DNA of 64,000 nt, from NCBI RefSeq assembly GCF_016599855.1, contig NZ_CP067041.1, positions 4,402,001-4,466,000 on the forward strand. The letters are read 5' to 3'. Position numbers and translations under genes: made by a program. The stretch comes from Bradyrhizobium diazoefficiens (GTDB lineage Bacteria > Pseudomonadota > Alphaproteobacteria > Rhizobiales > Xanthobacteraceae). Positions 9,511 through 38,596 of the stretch are shown piece by piece; within the stretch, counting starts at the first letter, position 1, and each line of letters opens with the position of its first letter. Below the pieces are notes generated by a model that ran no database searches, was not told the origin of the DNA, and worked only from the letters and a program-made list of their open reading frames with translations.

Positions 9511-9525
9511 CTAACATTGTATCGA
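9511..9525 (-). promoter_or_regulatory. Recurrent motif TCGATACAATGTTAG, promoter of the PstS-like gene
   Basis: This is one of the two best copies of the locus-wide motif. On the minus strand TATGTCGATACAATGTTAG is followed five bases later by CATAAT, a plausible -10 box. The motif lies 104 bases before the ATG. The copy at 18727-18741 shares TATGT(C)GATACAATGTTA. Regulator unknown. Confidence 0.5.
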
Positions 9526-10081
9526 CATAACTGGAATGATGATCTCCGGATAGCGATCCAGCCACCGAGGAGCAAAATGTAAATGTCCTTTGCTGCGGTT
9601 CGAGCAACCACGCGTTCAAGCGGGTAACGACTGCGGTTCGAAGCGAGTGGCCTCGAACAGGCCTTCTGATCAATGGTGCCTCGTGACATTCGGCACGGCG
9701 CCTCAAGCGCGAGTTCGCGCCGATGCCCGCATGAGACTGACACTTAGCCGCGCACAGTACCGACGGCTGGCTCCAAAACCCTGAAATCGCTCATGGGCCC
9801 GCACGAACCCCGGCCCGCTACAAGCGATTGTTGCGACGCGGCTGATAACCTCAGCCGACGGCTGCCAGTTGAGCGTCCGACCCCATCTTCTCACTAACAT
9901 GGATCGATACAACCGCGCCGCATCGCCTCCGTGGGACGTCACTACTTCGTCTCACCTCATTCATCATAACGTTAATAACACACAATATGTACAGCATTAA
10001 CACTCTTCCTCGCATAACGCTGAGCCGTGTTCAGCCGCTCTGATCGGGCAGCTTTCGCTTGGCAGATACAGGATTGTTCAG
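9526..10081. other. Non-coding region between the divergent PstS-like and parvulin genes
   Basis: About 555 bases with no convincing gene: short frames on both strands show no ribosome-binding site or recognisable domain. It holds a further copy of the motif on the minus strand (ATCGATCCATGTTAG, 9894-9908). It also has an AT-rich block at 9957-10015 that probably contains the parvulin promoter, with the near-repeated TTAATAACAC / TTAACAC. Confidence 0.5.
9894..9908 (-). promoter_or_regulatory. Recurrent motif copy ATCGATCCATGTTAG
   Basis: It matches the locus motif at 12 of 15 positions and has the same orientation as the others. It sits 487 bases before the PstS-like start and 174 bases before the divergent parvulin start, so its target is unclear. 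Confidence 0.3.
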
Positions 10082-10993
10082 ATGATAGGTCTACCGCGTC
10101 TTTCTCAGATCGCGTCGATTGCCCAAGCCGGACGGCGTCGCATAGGAGCTTTGACGACAGTTTTCTTGGGGACTTTGGTGATCGCCTGCACGTCGAGTGT
10201 CGCGCAGACCCCGGCGAGCGACCCAGTCATCGCCGTCGTCGGTGCTACCGAGATTCACCAGAGCGATTTTCGGTTGGCCGAGGAAGATATGGGCAAAATG
10301 CTTGCCGGCCTCGATGAGGAGAACAAGCGCCGCTATCTCGCAACCTATCTCCATGACCTGGTTATCCTTTCCAAAGCCGCTCGGGACGGAGGCCTCGTTG
10401 ACGAGGCAGATCTACAGAGGCGCATGACGTACACCCGGAACAAGGCCCTGATGGATCGTATGTTACGGGTTACAGCTGATGCGGTAACTGATGAAGATGT
10501 TCGCAAGTTTTACGATGAGGCGGTCCAGAAGACGAAACCCGAACCCGAACTTCATCTCCGCGCGATTGTCTTCAAATTTTCCAGCCCCAATGACGAGGCG
10601 GCGGTTGCCGCCGTGGAAGCGAGAGCCAACAGCGCTCTCGAAGGCCTCGCCAAAGACGATTTCGCTGCGGTCGCCCGCGAAATGACCGACGCCGAAAACG
10701 AAAAGGCGAACGGAGGAGATCTGGGCTGGCTCACGGCGGCCCAGATGGGCAAGGAGTATGCAGACGTTGCATTCACCCTCGGCAAGGGCGGCGTCTCGAA
10801 GCCTATAAAGACTGAGTTCGGATGGCACATCATCAAAGTCGAAGACGAGCGGACTCGCAAGCCGAACGAATTTGCAGCCGTACGCGACCAATTTGAGACT
10901 GTCGTTCGGCGCAAGGCCCAGATCGAGCTCGTGGACAAATTGCGCGCCGAAACGCCAATCGAGTGGCGCGACGACGAGGTGAAGCCGCGATAG
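10082..10993 (+). CDS. Parvulin-type peptidyl-prolyl isomerase, exported
   Basis: The protein has 303 residues with an N-terminal hydrophobic segment (about 22-42, ending SSVAQ), so it is probably periplasmic. It may be a lipoprotein, since Cys lies in GTLVIACTSS. A SurA/PrsA-like N-terminal helical region is followed by a PpiC rotamase domain at about residues 165-270, with the signatures NGGDLGWL and FGWHIIKVED. Such enzymes catalyse proline cis-trans isomerisation and act as folding chaperones for exported and outer-membrane proteins. It heads a plus-strand group with two glycosyltransferases. A second parvulin is at 24589-25602. The substrate is unknown; help in folding surface proteins of this locus is an inference. 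Confidence 0.85.
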   Translation: MIGLPRLSQIASIAQAGRRRIGALTTVFLGTLVIACTSSVAQTPASDPVIAVVGATEIHQSDFRLAEEDMGKMLAGLDEENKRRYLATYLHDLVILSKAARDGGLVDEADLQRRMTYTRNKALMDRMLRVTADAVTDEDVRKFYDEAVQKTKPEPELHLRAIVFKFSSPNDEAAVAAVEARANSALEGLAKDDFAAVAREMTDAENEKANGGDLGWLTAAQMGKEYADVAFTLGKGGVSKPIKTEFGWHIIKVEDERTRKPNEFAAVRDQFETVVRRKAQIELVDKLRAETPIEWRDDEVKPR

Positions 10994-11089
10994 CCACGTG
11001 AAACGTGTGGCCCAGAGTCAGCGCTCAGACCCGCGGCGCTTCAGAAACAAGAATCCGGTCGTATCGCGCATCGGGAGGGGTACGACATC

Positions 11090-11968: not shown

Positions 11969-12106
11969 CCTGCCGACTGCAGTGTGGCCTGCAAGTTCGA
12001 TACGACCGCCGCCAGAGCTGTAAGGGGTGCAACACGAACTCGTGCGGGCCGCCCTTGATCTTGGCCTACGCGACCTTGCACGGATATTGCGCGATCGAGG
12101 TTGGCA

Positions 12107-13270: not shown

Positions 13271-13327
13271 TCAAGCGCGGTGAGGATCAAGCGAACCGTC
13301 GGCGCAGAACCGGCGTTCTTTTTGCAA

Positions 13328-14266: not shown

Positions 14267-14340
14267 CTGTCCGTCCTCGCTTGTCGAAATCCGGGAAATT
14301 CATCTTGGCTTTCTCCGTCACTGGCGACTTCGGCGCCGCT

Positions 14341-15468
14341 TCAGGTCGCGGACGCAAGCTTCCTTGCGGCCGGCGGCAGACCAGCTGCCGCAAGGTTCAA
14401 CCCGTCGACGTATCGGCGCGCCGACCGATCGAGATTGAGTTGCGCTGCGGCCTGGACCGCGGCCCGCGACATCGCCGACCAGCGCGCGGCATCGCCGACC
14501 AGCCGCAAAATCGCGGCCGCCCAGGGCTCGACCTCGAGCGGGCGCACCAAACCGCAGGCATCGTCGATCACGAGTTCGTCCGCCGCGCCGACGAACGGAG
14601 AGACAATGCACGGCGTGCCGCATTGCATCGCTTCGTTGCAGACCAGTCCCCATGCGTCCGACTTCGACGGCAAAGCGAGCATACGCGCGGAGGCGAACAC
14701 CGACGAAATCTCCTCTGGCGGGACGTGCGACGTATATTCGAATGCGACCTCCGCCGTGGAGAGCTGATCAAGCTCCTCGGGCCTGGATGGGCTATCCGCG
14801 ATGATGCGCACCGAAAGCGTGGGCAACCGGCGCTTCAGCTCAAGCACGAGCTTCACGAAGAAAGGCCAGTTTTTCCGCTCGTCGTTCACGCGTCCGCACC
14901 ACAGCAGATCATAGCGGCGCCGGGCGAATTCCGGAATATCGGCCGGTCCGCCCCAGGCCGGAACGATGTTCGCCACGAAAATCTTCTTCGGGTCCGCGCC
15001 CTGCTCTACGAAGAAGTCTCGCCCCTTCGCGCTCGCGCAGATGATCGCCCGGCAACGACCGACGACCGCCGGTCGCGTCAGGCGATGATAGACGCTCTGC
15101 GGCATCATGATCGCCCACCCGTCGGTCAGAAAGACCAGCGGCTTTCTGTGGACCCGGCTCCAGGCTGCGGCGACCAGCATCGTCGGATAGACACCGTTGA
15201 TGGCAACGAGATCGGGAGACAGACGGCTCAGCGTGCTCCACATCCCCACATTGATATGCGCCGACCTCGATCCTGGCAGATCGAACTCTATTCCGCGAAG
15301 CAGGATGTGGCTATACCGCGCGGCGTAGCGTTCCGACCACTGTCGGTTCTTCTCCCGGGCGGCACACGATATCACCGTGAGATCGAGCCCGTGGCCATCG
15401 ACTATGTGATTGAAGAGCCGGTTCGTATATGGCGTGACCATGTTGTTGCAGATCGCGATACCCGGCAT
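14341..15468 (-). CDS. Glycosyltransferase family 4 protein
   Basis: 375 residues with a GT-B layout: CNNMVTPYTNRLFNHI near the N-terminus, DLVAINGVYPTMLVAAAW, and a C-terminal half with LLWCGRVNDERKNWPFFVKL and PSKSDAWGLVCNEAMQCGTPCI, which contains the conserved acidic donor-binding pair. The best copy of the locus motif in this spacer is 141 bases upstream. It heads a two-gene unit with the GNAT-like gene. It is likely to build the same polysaccharide as the WecG and GT4 genes on the other strand. Confidence 0.88.
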   Translation of the reverse strand: MPGIAICNNMVTPYTNRLFNHIVDGHGLDLTVISCAAREKNRQWSERYAARYSHILLRGIEFDLPGSRSAHINVGMWSTLSRLSPDLVAINGVYPTMLVAAAWSRVHRKPLVFLTDGWAIMMPQSVYHRLTRPAVVGRCRAIICASAKGRDFFVEQGADPKKIFVANIVPAWGGPADIPEFARRRYDLLWCGRVNDERKNWPFFVKLVLELKRRLPTLSVRIIADSPSRPEELDQLSTAEVAFEYTSHVPPEEISSVFASARMLALPSKSDAWGLVCNEAMQCGTPCIVSPFVGAADELVIDDACGLVRPLEVEPWAAAILRLVGDAARWSAMSRAAVQAAAQLNLDRSARRYVDGLNLAAAGLPPAARKLASAT

Positions 15469-15598
15469 TGATTCTGCCCAACAGTCGAACTAACAAGGCT
15501 GCCTAATTTCAGCTCGCGCGTTAGCCGCAGAAGCGGCCTTCGCCGCAGCCTGGATGTTCCGGGCCGACGTTTTTTGAATAGTCAGCAACTATAACGAC

Positions 15599-16477
15599 GT
15601 GATGACCGCTAACATTGAATCGACTGCGACCTTTGGCTTCGTCGCCTGTCACAATCTAACGCGATTTCGAATGATAGGTATCCCCCTCATGACGTACACC
15701 GCAACGCGGCTCCGCGCTTCTATTGGCGCGTTTCACAGGACGTTCCTGCGCCGGCCTCTTCCGGATAAGCTGGCGCTTTATCTCCATTCGTTGAGGGGAC
15801 GCGCCTCGGCAGTGGAACAGCTGATGCGGCGGTTTTCCGACCTCGGCTACAGCTTCGTCGGCCCCGACCAGTTCCTATACAGCTCAGGCCGGATGATCTT
15901 GCTGACATTCGATGATAACTACCAATCATGGTACACCTGCCTGCCGATGTTCGAGCGGCTCGGGGCCACGGCGACTTTCTACGTCAATACCGTTTCGTTT
16001 CGCGATAGGGCCAACGAAGCTGAACTCCGCCGGTTCTTTTCCAGTATCTCCGCGGAGCCTGAGCCGACGCTGACTGTCGACGAGCTGAAATGCATTGCCG
16101 CGGCGGGGCACACGATCGGCGCGCATACCCACACACACCCCAATTTGGCGGCCATTTCGCTGGAGAAGGCAAAGCACGAGATCAGGACCAGCAAAGCCAT
16201 CCTCGAAGACATCCTGCTCGAGCCTGTGGCCCATTTTGCTTATCCGTTCGGCATGCGCAGGCATTTTTCCTCGCCCTTGAAACAGTACTGCTTCGAGATC
16301 GGCTTCAAGACCGTCGCGACCGGCCTTCCTGCCCTGCAGTATGTGAAGCCGGAGAGCGGCATTGTTCATCGTTCCGTTGTCCAGCTCGATGTGCCGTTTG
16401 AGCGGTATATCGAAAACCTCCAGGTCGATGGGCGGATTTTCGAACGGATCACCGGCCGCAACCCCGTCGCGGTGTGA
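15599..16477 (+). CDS. Polysaccharide deacetylase (NodB homology, CE4)
   Basis: Up to 292 residues. NodB-type motifs are clear: LTFDDNYQSW (metal-binding Asp pair, about 102-110), GATATFYVN, GAHTHTHPNL (metal-binding His pair) and HFAYPFGM. CE4 enzymes remove N- or O-acetyl groups from polysaccharides. There is no signal peptide, so a cytoplasmic or membrane-face role on a lipid-linked precursor is possible. The start is uncertain: GTG 15599, ATG 15602, ATG 15670 and ATG 15690 are all in frame and none has a good ribosome-binding site. The catalytic motifs all lie after 15690. Confidence 0.85.
   Translation: MMTANIESTATFGFVACHNLTRFRMIGIPLMTYTATRLRASIGAFHRTFLRRPLPDKLALYLHSLRGRASAVEQLMRRFSDLGYSFVGPDQFLYSSGRMILLTFDDNYQSWYTCLPMFERLGATATFYVNTVSFRDRANEAELRRFFSSISAEPEPTLTVDELKCIAAAGHTIGAHTHTHPNLAAISLEKAKHEIRTSKAILEDILLEPVAHFAYPFGMRRHFSSPLKQYCFEIGFKTVATGLPALQYVKPESGIVHRSVVQLDVPFERYIENLQVDGRIFERITGRNPVAV
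15609..15623 (-). promoter_or_regulatory. Recurrent motif TCGATTCAATGTTAG upstream of the GT4 gene
   Basis: It differs from the copy at 9511-9525 at only one position and has the same orientation. It lies 141 bases before the GT4 ATG. It overlaps the first codons of the divergent deacetylase frame if that frame starts at 15599, which is one reason to suspect a later start there. Confidence 0.45.
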
Positions 16478-16635: not shown

Positions 16636-18635
16636 TCACGGCTTGAGGATGAATATCGGCGAGTTGGTCAGCGTGACCTGGTTGCCGGAGATCGGATTGA
16701 TGTTACCCGACACATCCTGGTATCGGCTATAGCCCGGATCGAGCGGAAGAACCGTCGGGTTTCCGCTCGAGTCCCAGGCCAGTATCACGGAAGATCCGTC
16801 CGCGCGCGTATAGGTGCCCTGCCAGGTGGTGGCATTGTCGAAACTCGGCCGGGCCAGTCGGAGAGTGATGTCGACCGGTTGTCCCGCGCTGTAGCCGAAC
16901 GCAACCGTCGGGACCACGAACCAGCAATCTGGGCTCTTGGTGATCGCCATGATCGGATTCTGTTGGAGCGTATAGTCCCACGACGTCGCCGGGGCATTCT
17001 GGCCACCGGTGAAGGTTATCGGTTGCTGAGAGCTATTGTACTCGACGAGGCCGGTCCAGACAGTGACGTTGTCGTAGGACCCCGCGATCAGGCTCTGGTT
17101 GAAGCTGCCGAACCATTGCGTGCCCTGCTTGGAGGCGATCGTGCCGGGGGTCTCGAATTCGATCCGGGCAAAAGTACGCGTGGTCGTCGGCGTTCCCTGG
17201 ATCCGGAAGTCGACAGCGTCGCCCGCGACGTTGACGACGCTGATCGCGAGACCATCAGCGGCAATGGCCCGCCAGGACGTGGGGGCCGACCCGCCGCTTG
17301 GGGTGGGGTTGCTGATCCGGTTCGGGCCGGCTTGGCGGGCGATCGGCTTGGCCGGCGTTGTACCGACGAACTGGCCCAGCAGGGCGTAGGCTGTCCCCGC
17401 TCCGTTGAGACTCGTTCCCTGCCCGCCCCAGAGATAACCGTAGGCGATATTATCGTAGGCATACCAGTAGGAACGCTCAAGCCCGCCGGCCTGCCATCAG
17501 CATGGTTGTCTTGACTACGTACTCGGCGGACAGTTGCCGATTTTGTAGATAATTGGGATTCGTCAGGCAATCCACCGCCTGACAGGACGGGAGCTGTCCG
17601 TCGGTTCCGTAGTTGTTCTTAAGCCAGACACCAAGGCCACCCTCGGTGCTCCACACGGCTTCGAGGCGGTAGGTCGCGGCGATGTTCTTGTGTTTCTGGA
17701 CGTCGATGATGGCCTGTTCGGCAAGGAGCGGGTAGCTCGCCGGATCGATGACGCCCAAAGGGACGTTGCCTTGACTGGTCTGGATGACGCGCTGGGCCAT
17801 CAGCGTCTCGTCTCCGATTTCTACCCAGTTCACCGGGTAGCCGTGATAGGCCAGAATGTCTGCGCACGGCGGCGCCGTAGTACTGCCCGCCGGCGGCACA
17901 CTGCACTGCCTGAGAAATTCGAGCATCCACAAGACGCCGTCGCCCGGGAGCGTCGCACCCGTCGGCTGGGAGTAAACCGCTGGCGTCAAGACCTTCGCGG
18001 TTGGATCAATACTCTTTATGATCCGATACGCGTCCCGCGCCAACGCCACCATCGTCTGGATGTCCCCCGACCAAAAGCTGCTGTCGTTTGGCTCGTTCCA
18101 TATTTCCCACAGTTTCACCCTGCCAGCGGCGTGACCCACCACGGCCGTGATCCAGGCGGTCCAGTATTCCTCCCGGGGCGGCGAACAGGTTCCATCGCCA
18201 TATGCGCATGGACTCGCTTTAGGGTTGGTCACGGCCCAAGCCGGAGCGGTTCCTAAATTGAAATACGATGTCGGCGCCATTTGCGGTCGTTCTCGCGACG
18301 ATGGCGTCGAACGCTGTCCAATTGAATTGCCCGGAACCCGTATTGATGCCGGACCAAGTGGCGCCGCTATCCCACAAACGGCGCGACCCGATCGGAAGCG
18401 CCGGCCATGAATTGGAATCGTTTTGAATGTGCATTCCGAAATAAGAGAGGGGAATCGGCGATTGAGCCGAGGCCGCGGTCGCACTCAGAAATGATATCCC
18501 AAGCAATGCGCCAAATCGGATCAGTGACCCGGAGCAGGATCGTACATAATTGACGATGCCTGCAACAGAGAGAGCGCTAGCGTGCTCTTTGAACTCGATC
18601 AGCGGGCTACTTGAGCTTCCTGTACCGACTTCCAT
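16636..18635 (-). pseudogene. Clan-A glycoside hydrolase (GH39/PslG-like), two frameshifts
   Basis: Three frames make one protein of about 665 codons. It starts at ATG 18635 (AAGGAG upstream) with a signal peptide that has an unusually long n-region (about 45 residues before the hydrophobic core, ending SAQS). Next is LSYFGMHIQ..WP. Near 18255-18265 the frame shifts (one extra base, or two lost). It resumes as FNLGTAPAWAV, then KLWEIWNEPND (acid/base Glu), DILAYHGYPVNW and WSTEGGLGV (nucleophile region). A second shift at 17481-17495 fits a four-base duplication in GGCCGGCGGG. The last frame runs GGLERSYWYAYDN to the stop at 16636. PslG-like enzymes trim exopolysaccharide in the periplasm. 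Either it is a recent pseudogene or there are two sequencing errors. Confidence 0.8.
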
Positions 18636-18726: not shown

Positions 18727-18741
18727 TTAACATTGTATCAC
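18727..18741 (-). promoter_or_regulatory. Recurrent motif GTGATACAATGTTAA before the glycosidase pseudogene
   Basis: On the minus strand TATGTGATACAATGTTAAGTAGATAT; the motif ends 92 bases before the ATG. It is almost identical over 17 bases to the copy upstream of the PstS-like gene. A poor -10 (GATATC) follows at the expected spacing. Confidence 0.5.
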
Positions 18742-19711: not shown

Positions 19712-19726
19712 CTAACATAATCTACT
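19712..19726 (-). promoter_or_regulatory. Recurrent motif copy (AGTAGATTATGTTAG) before the methyltransferase
   Basis: A weaker copy that keeps the ATGTTAG core and orientation; it ends 99 bases before the chosen ATG, matching the spacing seen at the other copies. Confidence 0.35.
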
Positions 19727-19784: not shown

Positions 19785-20534
19785 TCAGAGGTCAAGATAA
19801 CTGATCATGGTCACGTCGCGGCCGAGGACACCCCTCCAGTCGCCATCGAGCAGACGCGTCTCATCCGTAAACAGCGGACTGCCTGGATGGCACATGAGCT
19901 CGACCGTGCCGGTCCAAGCGTACCCGGCGACAACCCGCTCATAGAGCGTCGCAAATTCGGTGAAGGCGTTGGTCGTCTGCGTGGGAACGATCGTGGTGAA
20001 CGCCAGGTTCCATGCGGTCGTGGCCGCCCGTATTCCTGGTCGCCGGCGGCCGAGGTTGAAGATGTTGCGCCTGAGGCGCGCCTTGCGGATGTTGAAGCGG
20101 AGCTGAACGCGCTTGAAAACGGCAAACAGCGCCGGATGGGTATGAATGTGATGGTGTGAGTCGAGATGCGACACTGGTACGCGCAGGTCGAGAGCGCGCT
20201 CGACCTGAGCGCACCATTCACGGAACACCGCTTCCCTCGTCTCTCCGCTCAGCGTCAGATTCTTGACCCAGCCTGGCGCCAGTGCGCCGCTCTCGTCGCA
20301 CAAGGCATCGAGCGCGGCACCGCGCGTCAATGGCAGGAATTCAGTGGCGTTGAGGTGGACCCCGAACGAAGCCTGCGGGAAATCCCGGAGCCGGGCCGCC
20401 GCGGCCTCGACTGCCGACCCGTTCGCCAGGATGGTCGCAGAAGTGACGCTTCCGGCTTCGATCAGCCGGAAAATATCCTCGTTCACGACGCGGTCGTGCC
20501 CAAGATCGTCGGCGTTGACGATCAGGCGCCTCAT
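19785..20534 (-). CDS. ChbG/HpnK-family carbohydrate deacetylase (YdjC-like)
   Basis: 249 residues. NADDLGHDRVVNEDI at the N-terminus and HLDSHHHIHTHPALF in the middle are the metal-binding motifs of the YdjC/ChbG fold, which deacetylates N-acetylated sugars or glycolipids. The frame overlaps the stop of the FkbH-like gene by four bases, so the two are translationally coupled. No signal peptide is present, so it acts in the cytoplasm. It may deacetylate a precursor of the locus polysaccharide; the hopanoid pathway is unlikely since no hpn genes are near. Confidence 0.88.
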   Translation of the reverse strand: MRRLIVNADDLGHDRVVNEDIFRLIEAGSVTSATILANGSAVEAAAARLRDFPQASFGVHLNATEFLPLTRGAALDALCDESGALAPGWVKNLTLSGETREAVFREWCAQVERALDLRVPVSHLDSHHHIHTHPALFAVFKRVQLRFNIRKARLRRNIFNLGRRRPGIRAATTAWNLAFTTIVPTQTTNAFTEFATLYERVVAGYAWTGTVELMCHPGSPLFTDETRLLDGDWRGVLGRDVTMISYLDL

Positions 20535-22375
20535 GCGGCGACTTTATCGCCGGCCAAATCGCTCGCGTCCAGCGCAATCACGGCCCCGTCCTCAAGGTCG
20601 GCAGTCGCCAGATCGAGCGCCAGCAGGACCCTGCCCGCTTCTTCCTTCTCGGTCGAGAAGCGCATGTCCGCGAACACCTTGAGCAGCGGCTTGTTCTTGG
20701 ACGTCGGCCGCAGATCGGCCAGCAGCTTCCGATGTCCGCGTTCGCGCGCGCGGCGCGCCAGCCAGCCGAACACGCAATGTTCGACGCGCTTCTGCGCCAC
20801 GCGGCAGGACATGACGAAGTCCAGCAGCATGGGTTGCCCGGCATCCTCGACGACGCTGGCAAATCCGACGATCCCATAGCTGCCGAAGCGGTCTTCGCAT
20901 TCTATGGCCAGGCAGAGATTCCCGGGAGTGCGGAGAAGTCGGTCAAACGCCTCCGGGTCGTAACTCCGGCCGGAGAGGTTGAGCTGATTGGTGCGCTCGA
21001 TCAGCTCAAGGCAGCGCAACGTCTCCGCAGCGGTCGATGGCTTGAAGATGCGCAGTTTTATCTCGCATGAGCGGAGGAAGTCGAGATAATCGCCCGCGAA
21101 GACTTCGCGAGCGCGATCGCGATGCACCTCGGTGAGATAGGACAGCCGCCGCTGGCGGCTGGCCGACGTCACGGGCACATCGAACTCCGGCCGGTCAAGC
21201 ACGGATTCGAGGCCCTGCTCCGAATAGACCCGCACCATCGGCAGCGCGGTCCCGACCTCCTGCCTCTCGAAGGGAGAGTCGTCGATCAGCGCAAAAGTAT
21301 CGATGTTGATGTTGAGCCGATCGGCGATCTGTTGCAGGTTGGCGCTCTTCTGGCCCCAGTTGACCGCCGGACAAAGGAAATAGTCGCTCAAGCCAAAATC
21401 GGCGATGACCGCCAGGGCGTCGTCGTGATTGTTCTTGCTGACGACAGTCTGAATGATGCCACGGGCGTCGAGCTGCTTGATCAACTCGACGGCCTCCGGT
21501 CGCAGACTGAGGTTGGCTGCTCCGTCCTCGACAAGGATACCCTGCCACAGCGTGTTGTCGAGATCCCAGGCGACGCATTTGACCTTGCGCGCCGGCCCGC
21601 GCACCTCCCCACCAACAACCGGGAGGCTCGCGTCCTGGCGCAGCGCGACGAAATCAAGCCATGTGAAGATCACCCGAACCTCGTGATCGACTTCAGGCTC
21701 AATCGTCAGAAAATATTCCCTTTCGGCGAGGTCGCGCGGAAGCGGGACGGGAATGGAGAAGAAGTTCGGACCCGGCGCCACCTCGACCGCATGGCGGAAG
21801 ATGGTCGCATCGTCGACCCGCAAATTAAGCGCCAAGCGAAACGGCGAGCTTTCCGGACTAAAGCATTCGATGACAAAGGCGTTGTATTGATCGTTGGCCC
21901 GGCCCAAATGACGAAAGACCCGACTGCGCAGCTTGGCCAGGAGGTCATGGGGGACGCTGTTCGCCGCATCGATATGCTTGACCGCCGAATGGGTCACATT
22001 CGCCATGGCGACGGCGGCATCGTCGAACCGCTCGATCACCTGATGCGCCCGGGTCGAGACCAGGCAGCCGGTCAGTTCGGTCTCGAGCTTGGCCCAGCGG
22101 CGGAAGCGAATGTCGGCGCCGAAGCCGAGCCCGCCGCTGGCGGCGGTGTTACGAACGATACCATAGGCAAATCGCGCACAACGCCCGTCGCCACGGGGAA
22201 CGTACAGGCGGCACGTCGAATAGCATTGCGGTACGGCGCATTCGACGCAGTGCTCCTGCCAATGCAGCAACATCACGCCAGCCACATCTGTCGCGGGGAG
22301 ACGCGAGCGGATTTCCGGGATTGGCGCCTCGGTGCTCGCCGAGATGTCGGCCCGCGCCCATTCAGACTGATACAT
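20531..22375 (-). CDS. FkbH-like HAD-IIIC protein with cysteine-rich N-terminus
   Basis: 614 residues. The C-terminal 350 form an FkbH-like module: HAD domain with AWDLDNTLWQG (nucleophile Asp near 271), TVVSKNNHDDA and ALIDDSPFERQEV, then a GNAT-like domain ending about 590. FkbH-type proteins usually load glyceryl or similar acyl groups onto carrier proteins, but stand-alone versions occur in polysaccharide loci. The first 80 residues hold Cys43, 46, 51, 55 and 66 (C-x2-C-x4-C-x3-C-x10-C), a pattern that could bind zinc or an iron-sulfur cluster. Residues 80-250 look beta-rich. GGAGG lies 13 bases before the ATG, a long spacing. No carrier protein is in view. Confidence 0.82.
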   Translation of the reverse strand: MYQSEWARADISASTEAPIPEIRSRLPATDVAGVMLLHWQEHCVECAVPQCYSTCRLYVPRGDGRCARFAYGIVRNTAASGGLGFGADIRFRRWAKLETELTGCLVSTRAHQVIERFDDAAVAMANVTHSAVKHIDAANSVPHDLLAKLRSRVFRHLGRANDQYNAFVIECFSPESSPFRLALNLRVDDATIFRHAVEVAPGPNFFSIPVPLPRDLAEREYFLTIEPEVDHEVRVIFTWLDFVALRQDASLPVVGGEVRGPARKVKCVAWDLDNTLWQGILVEDGAANLSLRPEAVELIKQLDARGIIQTVVSKNNHDDALAVIADFGLSDYFLCPAVNWGQKSANLQQIADRLNINIDTFALIDDSPFERQEVGTALPMVRVYSEQGLESVLDRPEFDVPVTSASRQRRLSYLTEVHRDRAREVFAGDYLDFLRSCEIKLRIFKPSTAAETLRCLELIERTNQLNLSGRSYDPEAFDRLLRTPGNLCLAIECEDRFGSYGIVGFASVVEDAGQPMLLDFVMSCRVAQKRVEHCVFGWLARRARERGHRKLLADLRPTSKNKPLLKVFADMRFSTEKEEAGRVLLALDLATADLEDGAVIALDASDLAGDKVAA

Positions 22376-22461
22376 GTCCGTTACCCGACCTCCTCCGAGG
22401 CGCGCTGGAAGTACCAGCGCCTCATCGAGGAATAGTAGAGAAACTTGTCATTGAGATGACT

Positions 22462-22476
22462 GTTAACATAGCGACT
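22462..22476 (-). promoter_or_regulatory. Recurrent motif copy (AGTCGCTATGTTAAC) before the FkbH-like gene
   Basis: A weaker copy keeping TATGTTA and the orientation; it ends 87 bases before the ATG, again in the shared spacing range. Confidence 0.35.
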
Positions 22477-22519
22477 CACACGCTTATAACGGAGGCTCCC
22501 AGATGAGGCTTTGTGTCGA

Positions 22520-28802: not shown

Positions 28803-29207
28803 TCACCGCGCCACCGGCTTGGTCGCCATGCCGACCTGCGTGAAGTTGAGGCGGCCGAGCATATCGAGCACGTCGACGACGTTCTGGTATTGGGTCTGGG
28901 CGTCGCCGCGCACCACGATCGGAAACTCCGGCGTCAGCGCACGCTGCTGCACCAGCCTTTGCTCGAGCTCAGGCAGCGTCACCGGGATGGTGTCGAGGAA
29001 CAGCTTGCCGTCGTTGGCGACCGTGATCGCCTTCGTGGTCTGCTGCGCAAGGCTCGGCGCCGCGCTCGCCTTGGGCAAGTTCACCTTCATGCCCTGCACG
29101 GTCGCCGTGGTCATGATGATGAAGATCACCAGGAGCACATAGGCGAGATCGAGCATCGGCGTGATGTTGATGTCGTCGTACGGCTTGCTTTCGGACTGGA
29201 CTTGCAT
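28803..29207 (-). CDS. exbD: ExbD/TolR family biopolymer transport protein
   Basis: 134 residues. DDINITPMLDLAYVLLVIFIIMTTAT is the single ExbD membrane helix with its proton-carrying Asp. The periplasmic part (KVNLPKASAAPSLAQQTTKAITVANDGKLFLD; VVRGDAQTQYQNVVDVLDML) is typical. It starts four bases after the ExbB-fusion gene. Together with that protein and TonB it forms a complete three-part motor. Confidence 0.93.
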   Translation of the reverse strand: MQVQSESKPYDDINITPMLDLAYVLLVIFIIMTTATVQGMKVNLPKASAAPSLAQQTTKAITVANDGKLFLDTIPVTLPELEQRLVQQRALTPEFPIVVRGDAQTQYQNVVDVLDMLGRLNFTQVGMATKPVAR

Positions 29208-29211
29208 GGGT

Positions 29212-31167
29212 TCACTCCGCCGCCTGCTTCACCGGCTCTTCCGGCAGTTCGTAGGACTCCGCAATCCTCGTGATGAACTCATCGACGAAGACCTGCATCT
29301 CGCTGCTGACGTCCTTGATGCGGATCGTCAGGTAGTTGTAGGCAAACAGAGACGGGATCGCGACGCCGAGACCGGCGACGGTCGCGACCAGCGCGGCGGC
29401 GATGCCCGGCGCGATGGCGTTGACGTTGACGTCGCCGCTGGCCGCGATCGCTGCGAAGGTGATCATGACGCCCACGACGGTGCCGAGCAGGCCAAGGAAC
29501 GGGCCACCGGAGATCGCGATGGTGAGCATCACCATCAGGCGGTTGAGGCGCTGACTCTCCCGCACGAAGCCGCTGTCGAGCACGGCGCGGATCGACTGGA
29601 TCGCCTGCGGCGAAAGCCGGCGGTAGCCGCCACCCGAAAAGCGCCGCCGGATTTCCTGCGCGCCGGCCGCAAACAAGCGATAGAGCGGCGCGGCATGCAC
29701 CGCTTTGCACTGCTTCTTGCCGAGCTCGCCGCCGAAGCTCGGATCGTTCTCCTGGCTGTCGAGCTGAAGCAGACCGCTGATGTCGGTCGACGTCTCGCGA
29801 AAATGCTTGAGGAAGATCTCGTTGCCGCCCGACACCCGGTTCAGATACGAGATGCGATCAACCATGACGTACCAGCTGATCAACGCCATGATCGCGAGCA
29901 GGCCGATGACGACCCAGCCGTCCAGCGTCACCGAACGCAGGATGACGCCGAAATAGCCGCCACTGAACCAGCCCGACGTTTCCTCATCGACGCTGAACGA
30001 GATCAACTTGGCCTGATCAGGCCCCTGCCCGATCGCCGCCAATTTGATGAAGCCGGCCGGCCGCGCGACCTTCGCGATCTGGAACTCGTCGATGTCGCCC
30101 GCAAATCCCACGACCGGGCTTGTCGGTGCAGCCGCGGGCGCAGGCGTTTCAGCAGCATCGCCCGCGGGCGCGCCTGTCGAGGCATCGGCGGCAGGAGCCG
30201 GGGCCGGAGCGGCCGCAGGCGCACCGCCGAGCTGCGCCACACCGGTCATGGTCGGCAAGCCGGCGGCAAGCGTCGCGGCTTGGTTGCCGTCGACATAGAG
30301 AGTGATCTGGGTCGCCTTCGCCGTGAACGCGATGTGATGCCATGTCCCGGCGGCAATCGCCGTGCCGCCGGCACTGCGCTGCGTATTGCCGCCGTTTGTG
30401 ACCTCCACGAACGCGACACCGTTGTCCAATCCGACGGTGACCCCGTTCGCGCCTTCGGCGCGAGCGAACAACACGGCACCCGGCTGTGGCGCGGTCATCT
30501 TGACCCAGAGCGACCAGGTGAGTTCGCCCCCTTCGGCAACGACAAGCGACGGCGAGCCGGGCAGCGTCAACGCGGTCTGTCCGTCGAAGCGCGCGCCCTG
30601 GCCGATGATGGCGCCATCGGCGGCCGGCACCGCGCTCTGCGCGCTATTCGCCCAGGCGGTGACGTCCTGCGCCGGCGTTGCCCGGTCATTGAAATGATAG
30701 ACCAGCAGGGTGTCGGGATCGTAGGTGCCCTTTGCATCGACCGCCGTCGGCGCCTTCTGATTCCCGTAATAGAGCCAGATGTCGTTCTTGGTGCCCGGCT
30801 TCAGATCGGGAACGCTGACCCAGATCAGCGCCTCACCCAGCAGCGAGTCATATTTCTCGACATGGTGCTTGATCGGGGTCTTGTCGTCGCCCGCGACGAA
30901 GCGAAGATCGCCGCCATCCTCCTTCGCTGCGCCGAAGCGGAAATTGCCGACATGCAGGCGCACCAGGATCGGCGTCGGGCCAATGGCCTCGCTGATACCC
31001 GCACCGGACTGGCCGGTGTCGATGGTGATCTTCTTGCGCAACGTCCACTGATCGTTCCACCAGGCCGCCGCAGGCTTCGGCCACAATATTGCAAGAAGAA
31101 CGAGAAAGAGCATCACCGGCGCGCTCAGGCCAAATCCGCGGCGTGATCCAAAGCGAAGGAGCGACAT
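29212..31167 (-). CDS. DUF2341-LamG-ExbB fusion (MotA/TolQ/ExbB proton channel)
   Basis: 651 residues. Signal/anchor helix at 13-35, then a DUF2341 domain (WWNDQWTLRKKITIDT..., about 36-155). A LamG/concanavalin-like domain follows at about 185-315 (ARFDGQTALTLPG; LTWSLWVKM; GTWHHIAFTAKATQITLYVDGN), then an Ala/Pro linker and a membrane helix at about 408-428. The ExbB core spans 500-640, with GPFLGLLGTVVGVMITF and GIAAALVATVAGLGVAIPSLFAYN. Plain ExbB is about 240 residues, so nearly 400 residues of sugar-binding-type periplasmic sequence have been added. The gene abuts the TpsB stop with no gap. A sensor gating the motor is an inference. Confidence 0.9.
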   Translation of the reverse strand: MSLLRFGSRRGFGLSAPVMLFLVLLAILWPKPAAAWWNDQWTLRKKITIDTGQSGAGISEAIGPTPILVRLHVGNFRFGAAKEDGGDLRFVAGDDKTPIKHHVEKYDSLLGEALIWVSVPDLKPGTKNDIWLYYGNQKAPTAVDAKGTYDPDTLLVYHFNDRATPAQDVTAWANSAQSAVPAADGAIIGQGARFDGQTALTLPGSPSLVVAEGGELTWSLWVKMTAPQPGAVLFARAEGANGVTVGLDNGVAFVEVTNGGNTQRSAGGTAIAAGTWHHIAFTAKATQITLYVDGNQAATLAAGLPTMTGVAQLGGAPAAAPAPAPAADASTGAPAGDAAETPAPAAAPTSPVVGFAGDIDEFQIAKVARPAGFIKLAAIGQGPDQAKLISFSVDEETSGWFSGGYFGVILRSVTLDGWVVIGLLAIMALISWYVMVDRISYLNRVSGGNEIFLKHFRETSTDISGLLQLDSQENDPSFGGELGKKQCKAVHAAPLYRLFAAGAQEIRRRFSGGGYRRLSPQAIQSIRAVLDSGFVRESQRLNRLMVMLTIAISGGPFLGLLGTVVGVMITFAAIAASGDVNVNAIAPGIAAALVATVAGLGVAIPSLFAYNYLTIRIKDVSSEMQVFVDEFITRIAESYELPEEPVKQAAE

Positions 31168-32946
31168 CTAGAATTCTCCCCAGACCCGAAAGCTGAACCG
31201 TGGATGGTTGGCGACGGTGACCTGCTGGCTGGTCAGCGGCACTCCGACGAAAACGATGCTGTTGAGGTAACGAAGCGTCTTCATGCGCATGCCGACACCG
31301 TAGCTCGCGAGGTCGAAATGCGATTGCTGGTCGGTCAGCGGCTCATGAATCCTAGCATTGGCACCGTCCACGAAGGCGAAGAACCGCCACTCGTCGAAAG
31401 CGTTGTACTTGATGGGATCGCCGATCGGATTCGGCAGCTTCTGCTCGAGGTATTGCGCGAGATTGGGCGTGCGCAACTCGAGCGTGCCGGCGACGCCATA
31501 GTCGCCGAGCACCTCGGACTCGAGATAGCCGCGGACCGTGTCCTGTCCGCCGAGGCTGAACTGCTCGCTGGACACCAGCGGCTGATCTGCCGCCTGACCC
31601 TGGAGCTTGCCGTAGAGCTGGAAGCCTCCGGCGAAATCCTGGGTGTGCGAAATGTCGGCGTGCAACGTGATGAAGCTCGCGGTGGCATCGAAACGCTTGG
31701 CGTCGAACTCGTCGCGGCTGGAGCCGATGCCGCGCAGGCCGGCGGTGATCGTGGCATTGAGCTGCGTGAGGCGTCCCTCGCCCTGCCAAGTCGCGCCATA
31801 GGTGCCGACGAGCGGGACATAGGTTACGGGCGAGTCGAAGGCATCGGAGCCGAGCTTGAGCGACTGCTTGAAATCCTTGTAATCGACGCCAAGCGACAGT
31901 GTCTGGAACAGATCGCCCCTTGACGGCAGCGTCAGGACAGCGCGGCCGCCGACGACCTGGCCCGGGCCCACGACGTTCGCTCCGCCGACCGTCGCGACGG
32001 AACTGTCCGAGACCAGGCCGTAAACGAGAACACTGAGCCAGTCGATCTCGGTGCGCGCCAGATACGAGCCCGATATGACCATCGCATCTTTGGGATTCAT
32101 CGGAGCGACCTGATAGGTCCAGGTCATGGAGTGGCCGAGTTGCCAGAGATTGTCGTAGTGCATCGAAACGCTGGTCCGCAGCGGCGTGGTGCTCGGGCTC
32201 TGCTTGTTGTTGAGCTCGATACTGCCATGCAGCGGATAAGTATCCTCGACGTTGAGGTCGACATCGACCGTTCCGGGCGCGACGCCTGCCCGCAGCGCCG
32301 GCGTGATACGCCGGTCCGACCAGCGATTGAGCGCGACGATGTCTTTCGTTACGTTCTGGAAATTCGGCAGCGTCCCTTCCTTCAGTGACGGTGCATTGTC
32401 CTTGATGTTCTTGAGGTCGAAATAGCGCGACCCTTTAATGCGCAGGCGTCCGACCCGGTTTTCGGTGACCTTGAGCACGATGAAGCCGCGCTGCGCGTCC
32501 TGCTGCGGGACCCCCACGCTCACGGTTTGGAGGCCCTTGTCATGATAGGCCTTCTCAACCGCGGCGCGCGCCTTTTCGACGTCCTGCGCGCTCTTGTTCG
32601 GACCGAGGAACGGATACACCGCCGCCTCGACTTCGATCTGCGGCAGATTGTCCGCGCCCTCGACGCGAAACTCGTCAATGTCGAAGTGAGCTTCCGGAGC
32701 AGCTGGCTTGGCGGGATCGGCAGCGTTCTTGGCTGGCGTGGTTTCTGCGGGCTTCGCAGGCGCGGGCTTGGTGGTGCCCGCTTCGGACTTCGCCAGCGCC
32801 GGCCCTGCGCATATCGCGCAGATCAGCAGACCGCAAACAGCGAGCTGCGAAGCGCACGCAGCGGCTGACCGGCCTCTCCGGACGGCGCGCAACGGAAGCG
32901 GCGTGTGGCGGCGCGCGCTCCTCTCATACAGACCACGCGAATTCAC
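31168..32946 (-). CDS. TpsB-type outer-membrane transporter (ShlB/FhaC/HecB family)
   Basis: 592 residues. A long basic N-terminus and signal helix end GPALA (about 53), then a Lys/Pro/Ala-rich spacer. A POTRA region spans about 88-175 (FDIDEFRVEGADNLPQIEVEAAV; VTENRVGRLRIKGSRYF). The beta-barrel runs from about 245 to the final FRVWGEF (terminal Phe), with GQDTVRGYLE, the FhaC/ShlB loop-6 VRGY motif. It is the only TpsB in the window and thus the best candidate exporter for the haemagglutinin protein at 1-7607, 23 kb away. It leads the operon with ExbB, ExbD and TonB. Whether TonB energises export is unknown; known TpsB proteins need no energy source. Confidence 0.9.
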   Translation of the reverse strand: MNSRGLYERSARRHTPLPLRAVRRGRSAAACASQLAVCGLLICAICAGPALAKSEAGTTKPAPAKPAETTPAKNAADPAKPAAPEAHFDIDEFRVEGADNLPQIEVEAAVYPFLGPNKSAQDVEKARAAVEKAYHDKGLQTVSVGVPQQDAQRGFIVLKVTENRVGRLRIKGSRYFDLKNIKDNAPSLKEGTLPNFQNVTKDIVALNRWSDRRITPALRAGVAPGTVDVDLNVEDTYPLHGSIELNNKQSPSTTPLRTSVSMHYDNLWQLGHSMTWTYQVAPMNPKDAMVISGSYLARTEIDWLSVLVYGLVSDSSVATVGGANVVGPGQVVGGRAVLTLPSRGDLFQTLSLGVDYKDFKQSLKLGSDAFDSPVTYVPLVGTYGATWQGEGRLTQLNATITAGLRGIGSSRDEFDAKRFDATASFITLHADISHTQDFAGGFQLYGKLQGQAADQPLVSSEQFSLGGQDTVRGYLESEVLGDYGVAGTLELRTPNLAQYLEQKLPNPIGDPIKYNAFDEWRFFAFVDGANARIHEPLTDQQSHFDLASYGVGMRMKTLRYLNSIVFVGVPLTSQQVTVANHPRFSFRVWGEF

Positions 32947-33246
32947 CTAAGCCTCGATATCATGCTCGCATTACGGCCAGCTCTTCGCGACCGCAGTGAT
33001 CTTCGGAGCCCGAGCCGACCGGGACGCGCCAGTCCGTCGGGCCTTATCCGATAGACGCCGCGCTCACAGCCCCCGCGAAAAGATTCTCGCACTCGCGACG
33101 AGGGGCAATCGTTGATGTGATGATTCCGCGCAACATAACACCAGTATCGCGATATGAGCGTTATTGACTAACGGTTCGTCACATTACCGTTGTCCGACCT
33201 CTCTACCGTCCGGCAAAAATTCGGGGTTTAATAAGTGGGGCGTAAC
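32947..33246. other. Divergent promoter region, TpsB operon / ECF sigma gene
   Basis: About 300 bases without a gene. The AT-rich segment 33128-33235 should hold both promoters. On the minus strand it has GATACTGGTGTTATGTTG, a poor relative of the locus motif, 190 bases before the TpsB start. On the plus strand no clear ECF-type -35/-10 pair could be picked out. Confidence 0.45.
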
Positions 33247-33906
33247 ATGACCATCGATACCATCTCCAGCCTGCGGAGCTTGTTGCTCGCCGAGTACGTC
33301 GAATTCGATCGGCGGCTGACGCGCCGCCTCGGCTCGCCGGATCTTGCCTCCGAGGCGCTCAACGAGACCTATCTTCGCCTCGCGGGCATGCGGGAGATCG
33401 GCCCGGTGCGCAGCCCGAAAGCCTATCTGTTTCGTATCGCGCTCAACATTGCCGCCGATCGCCGTCGCGCGGAGAAGCGCCGCCTCACTGCCGACGAGGT
33501 CGACAGCCTCCTCGAGATTCCGGATGACCGCCCCGACGCTGCTCGCGTGATCGAGGATCGCTCGGATGTTGAACTGCTGAAGCGCGCCATCGCCGAACTG
33601 CCCGAGCGCCGGCGCCGCGTCCTCATGCTCTCGCGCATCGAGGGCCTGCCGAACCGGGAGATCGCCGCTCTCCTCGGCGTGACGGTCCGGACCGTCGAGA
33701 CCGATCTCAAACAGGCAGTCGAGCATTGCGCCGAGCGCCTCAAACGCCCCGCGCGCGACAAATTCGGTTTTCAGCGCTTTGCATCGTCTCACCTACAGAG
33801 ATATGTCGATCGGGGCCATCCGCTCTTGACCGGCATGGGCGGGAAAGCGCTGGATCGTGACGAAGCGAAACCATCAGGTCGATCACTTAGATCCGTTAGT
33901 CCGTGA
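33247..33906 (+). CDS. ECF-family RNA polymerase sigma factor
   Basis: 219 residues from ATG 33247 (GGGG seven bases upstream; GTG 33235 is less likely). Region 2 is at about 15-80 (ARRL-type helices with SEALNETYLRLAGMREIGPVRSPKAYLFRIALNIAADR). Region 4 is at about 110-165 (AIAELPERRRRVLMLSRIEGLPNREIAALLGVTVRTVETDLKQAV). A tail of about 50 residues after region 4 is longer than usual. It overlaps the FecR-like gene, the normal partner arrangement in FecI/FecR pairs. Its targets are unknown; the flanking TonB and secretion genes are obvious candidates. Confidence 0.92.
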   Translation: MTIDTISSLRSLLLAEYVEFDRRLTRRLGSPDLASEALNETYLRLAGMREIGPVRSPKAYLFRIALNIAADRRRAEKRRLTADEVDSLLEIPDDRPDAARVIEDRSDVELLKRAIAELPERRRRVLMLSRIEGLPNREIAALLGVTVRTVETDLKQAVEHCAERLKRPARDKFGFQRFASSHLQRYVDRGHPLLTGMGGKALDRDEAKPSGRSLRSVSP

Positions 33907-34120
33907 GGCACTGTCGTGGATCATGCGGCTGAAGTCCGGCGAGGCGACGATCGCCGATGCCGAACAACTGATGGACTGGCGCGGCAAGAGTTCCGCTCAT
34001 GAGCATGCATTCCGCGACGCCGTAAAATGCTGGCGTGCCATCGGCCAAGCGCTGGCCACCGGCCGCCCGGCCCCGGCAGTGCGGCGCCGGCGCCCAACGG
34101 CCGGCAAGAAGCGCGCATGA
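33857..34120 (+). CDS. Truncated FecR-like anti-sigma protein (DUF4880 domain only)
   Basis: 87 residues starting with GTG and overlapping the sigma gene by 50 bases. DPLVREALSWIMRLKSGEATIADAEQLMDWRGKSSAHEHAFRDAVKCWRAIGQAL matches in pattern the cytoplasmic N-terminal domain of FecR. The membrane helix and periplasmic signalling domain that normally follow are absent: a basic tail ends at 34120 and the next gene is convergent 50 bases on. It may be a soluble anti-sigma factor responding to a cytoplasmic cue, or a remnant. Confidence 0.75.
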   Translation: MTKRNHQVDHLDPLVREALSWIMRLKSGEATIADAEQLMDWRGKSSAHEHAFRDAVKCWRAIGQALATGRPAPAVRRRRPTAGKKRA

Positions 34121-34170
34121 TGCGGCGGGCCCGATCTGAAGGCCGCTCATCCTTCTCAACGTAGATCGGA

Positions 34171-35444: not shown

Positions 35445-35611
35445 GCTGCGAAGCCTCCATTAGCCAGCGTGCTTCCCGCTCGGGGTCTGCGAGACGACAT
35501 CATTGCCGGCCGACCGGTACCGTTGCGAGAATCCCACGTTATCATAATTCGTCGAAACTGGCGTGTCCCGATACGAGGCGCCATCGTCGACGCGCCGGAC
35601 TGCCCTCCCCC

Positions 35612-36790: not shown

Positions 36791-37136
36791 GATCGTTTCG
36801 TACCCAACCGCAATACCATTCGCCGAGCCTGCCCGGTGCGCTACGCGCCGCCACGCTCTCCGCAACCCGCTTCGGATCAGGATGTGGTTCCTGCTTCATA
36901 GACGCCGCTCGCGTAATGACCACGAAAACAAAACGCACGACATTGCTCGGAAATCGCGTGGGGACGCCCCGCAACGGCAGTGGCGACTGCCGTCAGTGCG
37001 GCAGAGGCAAGCACTGATGCCCGCCTGTGGCGAGCATCGACCTCCAATCTGGTCCGCTTGGCTGGTTTGCCGCTTTTGCCGCGGCCGCTGATACGGGCCG
37101 ACGGCGCCGATCAGCTGACGGCAGCGACCTTGGTCG
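36791..37136. other. Non-coding region upstream of the OPX gene
   Basis: About 345 bases. Frames here have no start site or recognisable domain. It probably carries the OPX promoter; on the minus strand GAGCAATGTCGTG (near 36938-36950) only loosely resembles the locus motif. Confidence 0.4.
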
Positions 37137-37349
37137 TCACACCGCCGACAGCAGATCGCGCAGACGCACGATTTCGATGCGGGTTTCCTCGACCATGCGC
37201 ATCAGGAGCGCATTCTCGCATTTGAGGTTTTCGATGCGGCGAAGCCTGCTGCTTTCGTCCTGCTTGAGGCCGAGGCTGTACACGTTCTCGTTTGACTCGG
37301 GGCACGCGGACTTAAGACAAGCCAGATCAATCGCATTTGTCGCGCGCAT
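37137..37349 (-). CDS. Small coiled-coil protein, unknown
   Basis: 70 residues from ATG 37349, with GGGGGGTGA ideally placed upstream. The C-terminal half is amphipathic and helical (SSRLRRIENLKCENALLMRMVEETRIEIVRLRDLL), with heptad-like Leu/Met/Ile spacing. Two Cys lie near the N-terminus. No signal peptide. It is a plausible cytoplasmic oligomer or adaptor. I do not recognise the family; support is the ribosome-binding site and the structured sequence. Confidence 0.5.
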   Translation of the reverse strand: MRATNAIDLACLKSACPESNENVYSLGLKQDESSRLRRIENLKCENALLMRMVEETRIEIVRLRDLLSAV

Positions 37350-37698
37350 TTCACCCCCCAGAACTACAGACACAGGCTCGACTTTTACGTCTGCGCAAGC
37401 AGCAGCCCACTGCCCGTTACGCGCTGCCTATTTCTCATTCTTGTGCGAATGTTTCTTATCGTTGCTGTGACCGACATTAAAAAATAACTTCAAATTTAAG
37501 AAGGAAAGCGGCCGCTATGTTGGACGAAACGCGGCGATTAGATGGCAGCCTTGAAAGGACTTGCTTTTGGGGCCGGGAGCGCGTCCGTTCGTCGTATCCG
37601 CGCTGTGTCCTCACGTTTGCACGGGCGCTATCCTGCACCGGACTGTTCCATGCGCCGCTCAAGGGCGCCAGATCCACCGGTCAACCTGACGTGGTTAC
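37350..37698. other. Intergenic region between the small protein and the gspC/N-like gene
   Basis: About 350 bases. AT-rich at 37425-37500 (ACATTAAAAAATAAC). This is probably the promoter of the small protein and the end of the type II operon. I see no gene or terminator I can defend. Confidence 0.4.
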
Positions 37699-38499
37699 CT
37701 AGCGCGGCCTCTGCATGCCTGGCCCCCCAGGTGGCGGGGGCGGCTGCAACGCGCGTTGCACGCCAGCGCTTGTCAACGTTTGGCCTGTCGTCTTGAAAGG
37801 GTTGACAAGGGCCGCTGGCGGCGAAGATGCGCTTGGCGCAGCCGTTGACCTTGCCGAAGCGACCATCGGCGCTGCCGTCCCGGCAAACATCGGTGCGGCT
37901 GGCCCCGGCTTGAGATCGGGGGGCGCCAAATCGAGGATGGCGCTATCCAGTCCCTTCGCCAGTTCGACCTGACGCGGGCGCACACTGCGCAGCATCCATC
38001 CCTTATGGTTCTCGCCCGTTTTCAGGCGCAGGATTTCCTTGCTCGCGGAATCGATGAAAAGGCCGATCCGTTCGCGCGATCCTGCAACTGTGCCAAGCAA
38101 GGACAGCTGAGGCTTCTCGGGTTCCGGCGGTTTGGGTGGCGGACCGACGGGCGCCGCCACAGGTCGGATCATCTCCACCGGCGGCGCCGGACGCCGGGAT
38201 GGCACAAACAATGGTTGATCGCGCGAAGCAGTCAAACGCGCCAGCGGAATCGCCCAGAGCGGATTGCCGCTCGTGATCTGCTCAACTGGGGGCGCAGTCG
38301 TGATCGCCGTTGCAGCCGTGCTGGGCACCGGCGCTGGCGGCGGAACAGCAACCGGCGCCGCCGTGACCGGCCTCGGCGAGAACAAATCGCCACCGGTCGG
38401 ATCGATGGTTTGCGCATCGACCGTCAGCGGCGCGTTCGTGGCCAGCGCCTCGGCGTTACCGATCAGCACCAAACCAATCAGCAAAGCAACAACGCGCAT
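37699..38499 (-). CDS. Type II secretion GspC/GspN-like periplasmic protein
   Basis: 266 residues from ATG 38499 (AAGGG seven bases upstream). Upstream ATGs in the same frame overlap the promoter motif and lack good sites. A signal or anchor helix is followed by a Pro/Ala-rich spacer, then PLFVPSRRPAPP and a compact domain LSLLGTVAGSRERIGLFIDSASKEILRLKTGENHKGWMLRSV that resembles the homology region of GspC and the PilP/GspN group. The tail is Pro/Ala-rich. GspC couples the inner-membrane platform to the secretin and helps choose cargo. It is last in gene order but has its own motif copy upstream. Confidence 0.75.
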   Translation of the reverse strand: MRVVALLIGLVLIGNAEALATNAPLTVDAQTIDPTGGDLFSPRPVTAAPVAVPPPAPVPSTAATAITTAPPVEQITSGNPLWAIPLARLTASRDQPLFVPSRRPAPPVEMIRPVAAPVGPPPKPPEPEKPQLSLLGTVAGSRERIGLFIDSASKEILRLKTGENHKGWMLRSVRPRQVELAKGLDSAILDLAPPDLKPGPAAPMFAGTAAPMVASARSTAAPSASSPPAALVNPFKTTGQTLTSAGVQRALQPPPPPGGPGMQRPR

Positions 38500-38581
38500 T
38501 TCCGCGCCCTTCCCCAAGGTGGACATGGCGGCGAGCAATAACGTTCGCATCTCTCGAAATTGTGACATTATCATTATAGGG

Positions 38582-38596
38582 CTAACATTGCGATCC
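38582..38596 (-). promoter_or_regulatory. Recurrent motif GGATCGCAATGTTAG, promoter of the gspC/N-like gene
   Basis: On the minus strand TTGATT, 18 bases, then TATAAT form a good sigma-70-type -35/-10 pair, with the motif inside the spacer. It lies 83 bases before the chosen ATG. This copy best shows how the motif could sit within a promoter. Confidence 0.55.

Follow-up and report, generated by a model that had tools for sequence, protein, structure and literature searches.

Several described systems offer points of comparison for the locus treated here, which lies in a stretch of 64,000 nucleotides of Bradyrhizobium diazoefficiens (hereafter the window: contig NZ_CP067041.1, positions 4,402,001 to 4,466,000), part of a 7.1-Mb single-contig genome with Bradyrhizobium relatives. 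For the response regulator CtrA, the literature writes the half motif as TTAACAT and the full site as TTAA-N7-TTAA (PMC4287350, PMC6180460, PMC4241560), assigns 107 activator and 24 repressor promoters to half-sites, mentions that TTAACAT was also found by others under SciP peaks (PMC4287350), and elsewhere reports full and half sites as well (PMC6180460). In the PUMA3 system of Pseudomonas aeruginosa, the promoter PphdA drives phdA, pdtB, exbB2D2 and tonB4, according to PMC4971064. In the window, the word ATGTTA[GA] recurs on the minus strand upstream of PstS-like, polysaccharide and type II secretion genes. We tentatively read it as [CT]TAACAT, the predicted half-site of a CtrA-type response regulator, with a probability of roughly 0.45; this reading is the likeliest because the reverse complement of the word, [C/T]TAACAT, resembles the CtrA half motif TTAACAT as written in PMC4287350. 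The initial annotation of the window, which drew attention to the word, knew of no described regulator with such a site; given this resemblance, an undescribed regulator is not supported.

The seven minus-strand copies noticed in that annotation all exist and all carry ATGTTA[GA], one of them shifted by a single base (22463 instead of 22462):

9511–9517, minus strand: core ATGTTAG, upstream of the PstS-like gene (7908–9407, minus strand)
9894–9900, minus strand: core ATGTTAG, a copy without conservation
15609–15615, minus strand: core ATGTTAG, upstream of a GT4 glycosyltransferase gene (14341–15468, minus strand)
18727–18733, minus strand: core ATGTTAA, upstream of a glycosidase-like region (17477–18635, minus strand) whose frame is interrupted
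19712–19718, minus strand: core ATGTTAG, upstream of a methyltransferase gene (start used 19613, minus strand)
22463–22469, minus strand: core ATGTTAA, upstream of an fkbH-like gene (20531–22375, minus strand)
38582–38588, minus strand: core ATGTTAG, between TTGATT and TATAAT as first described, upstream of the open reading frame (ORF) 37699–38598 (start used 38499, minus strand)

What these copies share is the core ATGTTA[G/A], and an eighth copy of it, absent from the original list, lies at 49448–49454 within a tandem of 11-bp period. The 15-base consensus first proposed is too long, only three of the seven copies coming within 3 mismatches of it (9511 and 15609 with none, 18727 with three). 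At that threshold the window holds seven matches, against 2.7 ± 1.4 in shuffled sequence, and four of the seven are at places other than the copies listed. Matches with at most 1 mismatch occur in 97 of the 265 Bradyrhizobium genomes of our comparison set, which includes the window's own. Among 30 of these matches viewed with their flanks no common neighbour gene appeared, and the 15-mer was dropped as a genus-wide site. One match, in genome G015, has a GspL homologue at a distance of about 7 kb. The promoters of the GT4 gene (15575–15623) and of fkbH (22430–22477) both carry ATGTTA[GA]C[GA]GTCATC[AT]C and also, at equal spacing, ACTATTC.

The spacing of the copies, first described as constant, is similar but not constant: distances from the 5′ end of ATGTTAR (R being G or A) to the start codons used are 89, 94, 98, 105, 110 and 147 bases. 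Of these, 98 is uncertain, as the glycosidase frame read from 18635 reaches a stop after 138 residues. Most genes of the stretch lie on the minus strand, which in part dictates the shared orientation of the copies. In the upstream DNA of 22 related loci, the window included, ATGTTAG occurs 19 times in the sense and 5 times in the antisense direction, ATGTTAA 20 and 14 times, and ATGTTA as a whole 72 and 59 times, all counted over related and not independent sequences.

The core word is far from chance in its abundance. Of the 81 ATGTTAG in the genome, six are minus-strand copies in the roughly 40 kb from 9511 to 49454 of the window, where about 0.26 would be expected by our own arithmetic, uncorrected for the choice of word or region. 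The longer CAATGTTAG occurs five times in the genome, three of them in the window locus; of the other two, one is in DNA called coding and one in an open frame that the gene finder left uncalled. AATGTTAR counts 32 genomic copies, six of them in the window, and 7 of the 30 genomic copies given with flanks are called coding. We chose 18 upstream regions in the locus and compared their words with those of 180 such regions from this genome. AATGTTA came first among 7-mers and CAATGTTA first among 8-mers; many of the background regions derive from loci fetched for pattern matches, with their centres masked, and two of the 18 locus regions (GT4 and deacetylase) are the same DNA on its two strands. 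All eight minus-strand ATGTTAR of the window lie in DNA that the gene finder calls intergenic, which bears out the expected clustering outside genes. It is thus very improbable that the copies are accidents of AT-rich intergenic DNA in a stretch of lower GC content (down to 0.557 at 18–20 kb): the unconserved copy at 9894 and the near balance of ATGTTA between strands fit such an origin, but the first rank among all words, the conservation at three to four promoters and the genomic counts of ATGTTAG and CAATGTTAG do not.

Conservation was followed above all in G230 and G231, two near copies of each other that hold most polysaccharide genes of the window locus (G000 denotes the window's own genome, other G numbers the genomes compared). 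At the pstS-like promoter, identity of the window with both begins exactly at CAATGTTAG and continues through AATATCAAAG; CAATGTTAGTTCACATAATTAATATCAAAG of the 9511 copy is identical in the two, while the DNA just upstream diverges, and TCGATA, corresponding to the TCGATN that the first motif included, is lost. AATGTTA is retained before the GT4 gene, as AATGTTAT, TATGTTAACAGTCATCTC is identical before fkbH, and CAATGTTAAGTAGA of the 18727 copy also stands 3′ of ydjC in both genomes; the methyltransferase gene was not found in the G230 and G231 stretches. The expected conservation in relatives was accordingly found before the pstS-like, fkbH and GT4 genes, partly before the gspC-like gene, and not at 9894, whose copy is gone from G230 and G231 and is probably due to chance.

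When nine pstS-like promoters are aligned, four of the seven besides G000 and G230 have the word turned round, as ATAACAT, at the matching position; an adjoining TTCACA[AT]A is more conserved than either word. Such inversion is easier to reconcile with a half-site than with a fixed element of the promoter. This bears on the view that the word is part of a core promoter, placed near the −10 element of sigma-70 promoters as in the TTGATT-18-TATAAT arrangement before the gspC-like gene, where TTGAT[CT] is found in 8/8 genomes and AT-rich hexamers (TATAAT, TATGAT, TATAAC, TATTAT, TAGTAT) stand at the same distance. We consider it improbable, as the pstS-like promoters have no conserved −35, the distance to −10-like words varies and the word is inverted in those four promoters.

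The CtrA half-site reading draws further on tandem versions of the word at other promoters of the locus family. Over 21 related loci, [ACT]TAAC pairs separated by a 6-base spacer gave 27 matches, against 0–10 for each other spacer between 0 and 16, and pairs restricted to TTAAC gave 11, against at most 1 elsewhere. Tandems recur in 3 genomes at fliN, in 4 at a membrane gene with polysaccharide-type neighbours, and in 5 each at a two-partner secretion adhesin and after a Sel1-repeat gene. Two lie in the window:

49437–49454, plus strand: tandem ATAACAT-TAAT-CTAACAT of 11-bp period, after the Sel1-repeat gene
50460–50481, minus strand: CtrA-like site TTAACCAT-TGG-CTAACCAT, at the start of fliN (ORF 50148–50474, minus strand)

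The first combines the core word in one half with ATAACAT in the other; no plus-strand gene starts within 1 kb of it. In G155 a tandem of this kind stands in front of a Hint-domain gene, and G002, G104 and G179 have such tandems before genes in similar positions. The second is overlapped by the listed start of fliN (FliMN_C domain in Pfam), lies just before a divergent lipoyl-ligase-type gene (50474, plus strand), recurs in G179 and G095, and reads TTAA-N7-CTAA, with CTAAC as one half. Both are near-matches to the full CtrA site, exact versions of which occur at several promoters of relatives. Elsewhere in the genome, AATGTTAG at G000:C1:1788810 stands 75 or 117 bases, depending on the start codon, before a gene with a histidine phosphotransferase domain of the ChpT type.

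Several observations weigh against CtrA as the binder. The window contains no exact TTAA-N7-TTAA. At the six word-bearing promoters (pstS-like, GT4, glycosidase, methyltransferase, fkbH and gspC-like) a full site, that is two TTAA(C) halves 11 bp apart, was not found, nor a good second half at that distance, the best match being 5/7 at the pstS-like promoter; the six copies are called probable half-sites because their promoters lack a full site. The CtrA consensus scores no better there than in shuffles (median p 0.41–1.0), and only two of the six copies read TTAACAT, the four CTAACAT starting with a C that breaks the TTAA core. ATGTTAG stands before the gspC-like gene in 4/8 genomes (the window, G002, G104 and G095), the remaining four reading ACGTTAG, ACGATAG or GCGATAT, and ATGTTA lies upstream in 10/24 copies of the pstS-like gene from 22 genomes; this partial retention also weakens the proposal of one regulon joining all these genes. 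The 27 tandem matches contain overlapping ones from both strands as well as repeats of one site across several genomes, and their intergenic location says little because pairs at any spacer are nearly all intergenic. Finally, SciP, as a partner of CtrA, could be the binder, given TTAACAT under SciP peaks.

A different, undescribed regulator that recognises CAATGTTA as a single site, as the initial annotation had it, would account for that 8-mer being top-ranked in the locus, for the pstS-like conserved block starting exactly at it and for promoters devoid of a second half-site. We nevertheless hold this to be unlikely: the word resembles a described half motif, 11-bp tandem versions occur in the same locus family, and the sole regulator among the Pfam-scanned ORFs between the pstS-like gene and gspD is a sigma factor (the scan took in part of these ORFs and left out those at 41226–43249). 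A search for published sites matching ATGTTAG, AATGTTAG or CTAACATT returned one unrelated paper, which is no proof of absence from print. The first observation is partly confirmed: the motif exists, though in a narrower form than first described. The proposal of a single new activator for all the genes finds only partial support, and the half-site of a known regulator explains the word better. Nor is an activating role supported, since half-sites can act as activating or as repressing sites.

In the mechanism that we propose on sequence grounds, CtrA is an OmpR-family regulator that binds either two half-sites 11 bp apart or a single one; its phosphorylated form would bind the word-bearing promoters of the locus, and this binding, whose sign of effect we likewise infer, could set the cell-cycle timing of polysaccharide, PstS-like and gspC-like gene expression. 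A second layer may be provided by an extracytoplasmic function (ECF) sigma factor, the regulator met in the Pfam scan:

33235–33906, plus strand: ECF sigma factor gene (Pfam Sigma70_r4_2, Sigma70_ECF, Sigma70_r2)
33857–34120, plus strand: short ORF with a FecR N-terminal domain (DUF4880), GTG start, overlapping the end of the sigma gene
33052–33081, minus strand: predicted ECF promoter TTTTCG-N18-CGTCTA of the shlB operon
36899–36928, minus strand: predicted ECF promoter TTTTCG-N18-CGTCTA of the wza operon

Close orthologues of the sigma factor are present in 22/265 genomes, its own included (at least 63% identity, E at most 1e-76), the other matches listed reaching 53% identity or less. In the short ORF, DUF4880 (40.4 bits, cut-off 25) was the sole match and a periplasmic FecR domain was not found over its 264 bases from the GTG. 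Exact TTTTCG-N18-CGTCTA has two matches in the window's genome, both in the locus, and a version allowing N15–19 adds a third elsewhere. A relaxed pattern is found at shlB in 21 of the 22 sigma-bearing genomes (G013 reads CGTCCA) and at wza in 19 of the 20 stretches that hold the region (G115 reads CGTCTT), with four other matches elsewhere in related stretches. The exact pair within 5 kb occurs in 16/22 sigma genomes and 0/243 others; 74 of these 243 have one or two exact matches far apart, and a reversed control gives matches equally often. From this co-conservation of promoter and sigma gene, the sigma factor of the locus probably runs the shlB (TpsB/ExbB-TonB) and wza promoters; with its stand-alone FecR N-domain it would transcribe the TpsB-ExbB/D-TonB and Wza operons. 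That shlB and wza, which belong to the same machinery, have another kind of promoter in common further argues against one regulon defined by the word. The sigma/shlB intergenic alignment also contains an inverted repeat, TGTTA-N5-TAACA.

ATGTTAG was considered, and dropped, as the −35 element for this sigma factor. The sigma gene does lie within the locus and TGTC or TATC words follow some core copies, but the conserved, sigma-linked promoter is TTTTCG-N18-CGTCTA, found in the window only at shlB and wza, which makes the idea extremely improbable.

Equally hard to credit is a PhoB reading on the model of PUMA3, in which the copies would be degenerate PHO boxes. By a PHO matrix, fkbH and gspC rise above most shuffles (p 0.01; 0 of 200) and match 10–11 of 14 positions; against this, the pstS-like, glycosidase, methyltransferase and GT4 promoters do not rise above shuffles, the match-count medians are 0.21 (fkbH) and 0.25 (gspC), at gspC a reversed pattern used as control performs equally well (0.08), and the genome's best PHO matches lie elsewhere, one of them before another PstS-type gene. 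The PHO box CTGTCAY-N4-CTGTCAY was not found at the window promoters, and pattern and matrix scans gave no consistent support for one at the word-bearing promoters. In G021, G042 and G152, genes after ppiC2 are accompanied by a PHO-box-like sequence (12–13/14) on the opposite strand, before a polysaccharide-type membrane gene.

The remaining genes of the locus belong to the cell surface:

7908–9407, minus strand: PstS-like secreted protein gene (Pfam PBP_like_2)
28803–31167, minus strand: ExbB and ExbD genes, ExbB fused to DUF2341 and laminin-G
31168–32946, minus strand: TpsB/ShlB-type transporter gene (Pfam ShlB, POTRA_2)
37699–48847, no single strand given: type II secretion stretch, gspC-like ORF to gspD (Pfam M, L (PilN), K, F, E, D)

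The PstS-like gene co-occurs with the sigma factor (21/22 sigma genomes against 1/243 others). The fusion of an ExbB-type protein to DUF2341 and a laminin-G-like domain occupies 29212–31167. ORF 37699–38598 matched no Pfam family, gspC-like being the name given in the initial annotation. The glycosidase-like region 17477–18635 spans two frames, so that its start is unsure; the domain match is weak (20.8 bits, cut-off 21) and lies in the frame of ORF 17477–18484, different from that starting at 18635. The type II system may be Hxc-like. A second, more distant type II secretion locus of the genome (G000:C1:5325001–5375000) is without ATGTTAR on the corresponding strand.

Taken as a whole, the locus might, in one Bradyrhizobium clade, encode a surface programme like PUMA3 that comprises type II and two-partner secretion, TonB/ExbB, export through Wza and the PstS-like protein. 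CtrA would time it, partly through half-sites, and an ECF sigma factor limited to two promoters and restrained by a stand-alone cytoplasmic FecR N-domain would form the second layer; we regard this combination as possible but doubtful. If true, it would link the cell-cycle regulator CtrA with secretion and envelope polysaccharide in bacteria of a plant-associated genus, couple a receptor-free FecR system to the cell cycle as two-layer control, and offer a small regulon of one sigma factor whose defined promoter is open to direct testing, while the half-site reading would make a new regulator unnecessary for the motif.

Among the papers listed by a literature search for a Bradyrhizobium locus of this kind, none fitted. 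Unlike FecI/FecR, the window ORF lacks the periplasmic part of FecR and no TonB-dependent receptor was met among the ORFs scanned; like FecI/FecR, the ECF sigma factor is followed by a FecR N-domain (DUF4880). From PUMA3, or sigma-VreI-VreR with PhoB, the window differs in a FecR partner reduced to its N-terminal domain, in the lack of any noticed VreA-like receptor, in its TTTTCG-N18-CGTCTA promoter, extended to wza, and in shlB and wza promoters where the scan found no PHO box; it shares with that system the pairing of an ECF sigma factor and a FecR-type protein, the joint operon for TpsB, ExbB/ExbD and TonB, and a phosphate link, through starvation there and perhaps through the PstS-like protein here (PMC4971064, PMC7035377). 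With respect to CtrA sites, the copies at the six promoters are unlike in being single, in beginning with C rather than T in four of six cases and in lying in a window devoid of an exact full site; they are alike in that the reverse complement of ATGTTAA is TTAACAT and that tandems of 11-bp period stand at fliN, the two-partner secretion adhesin and polysaccharide-type genes of related loci.

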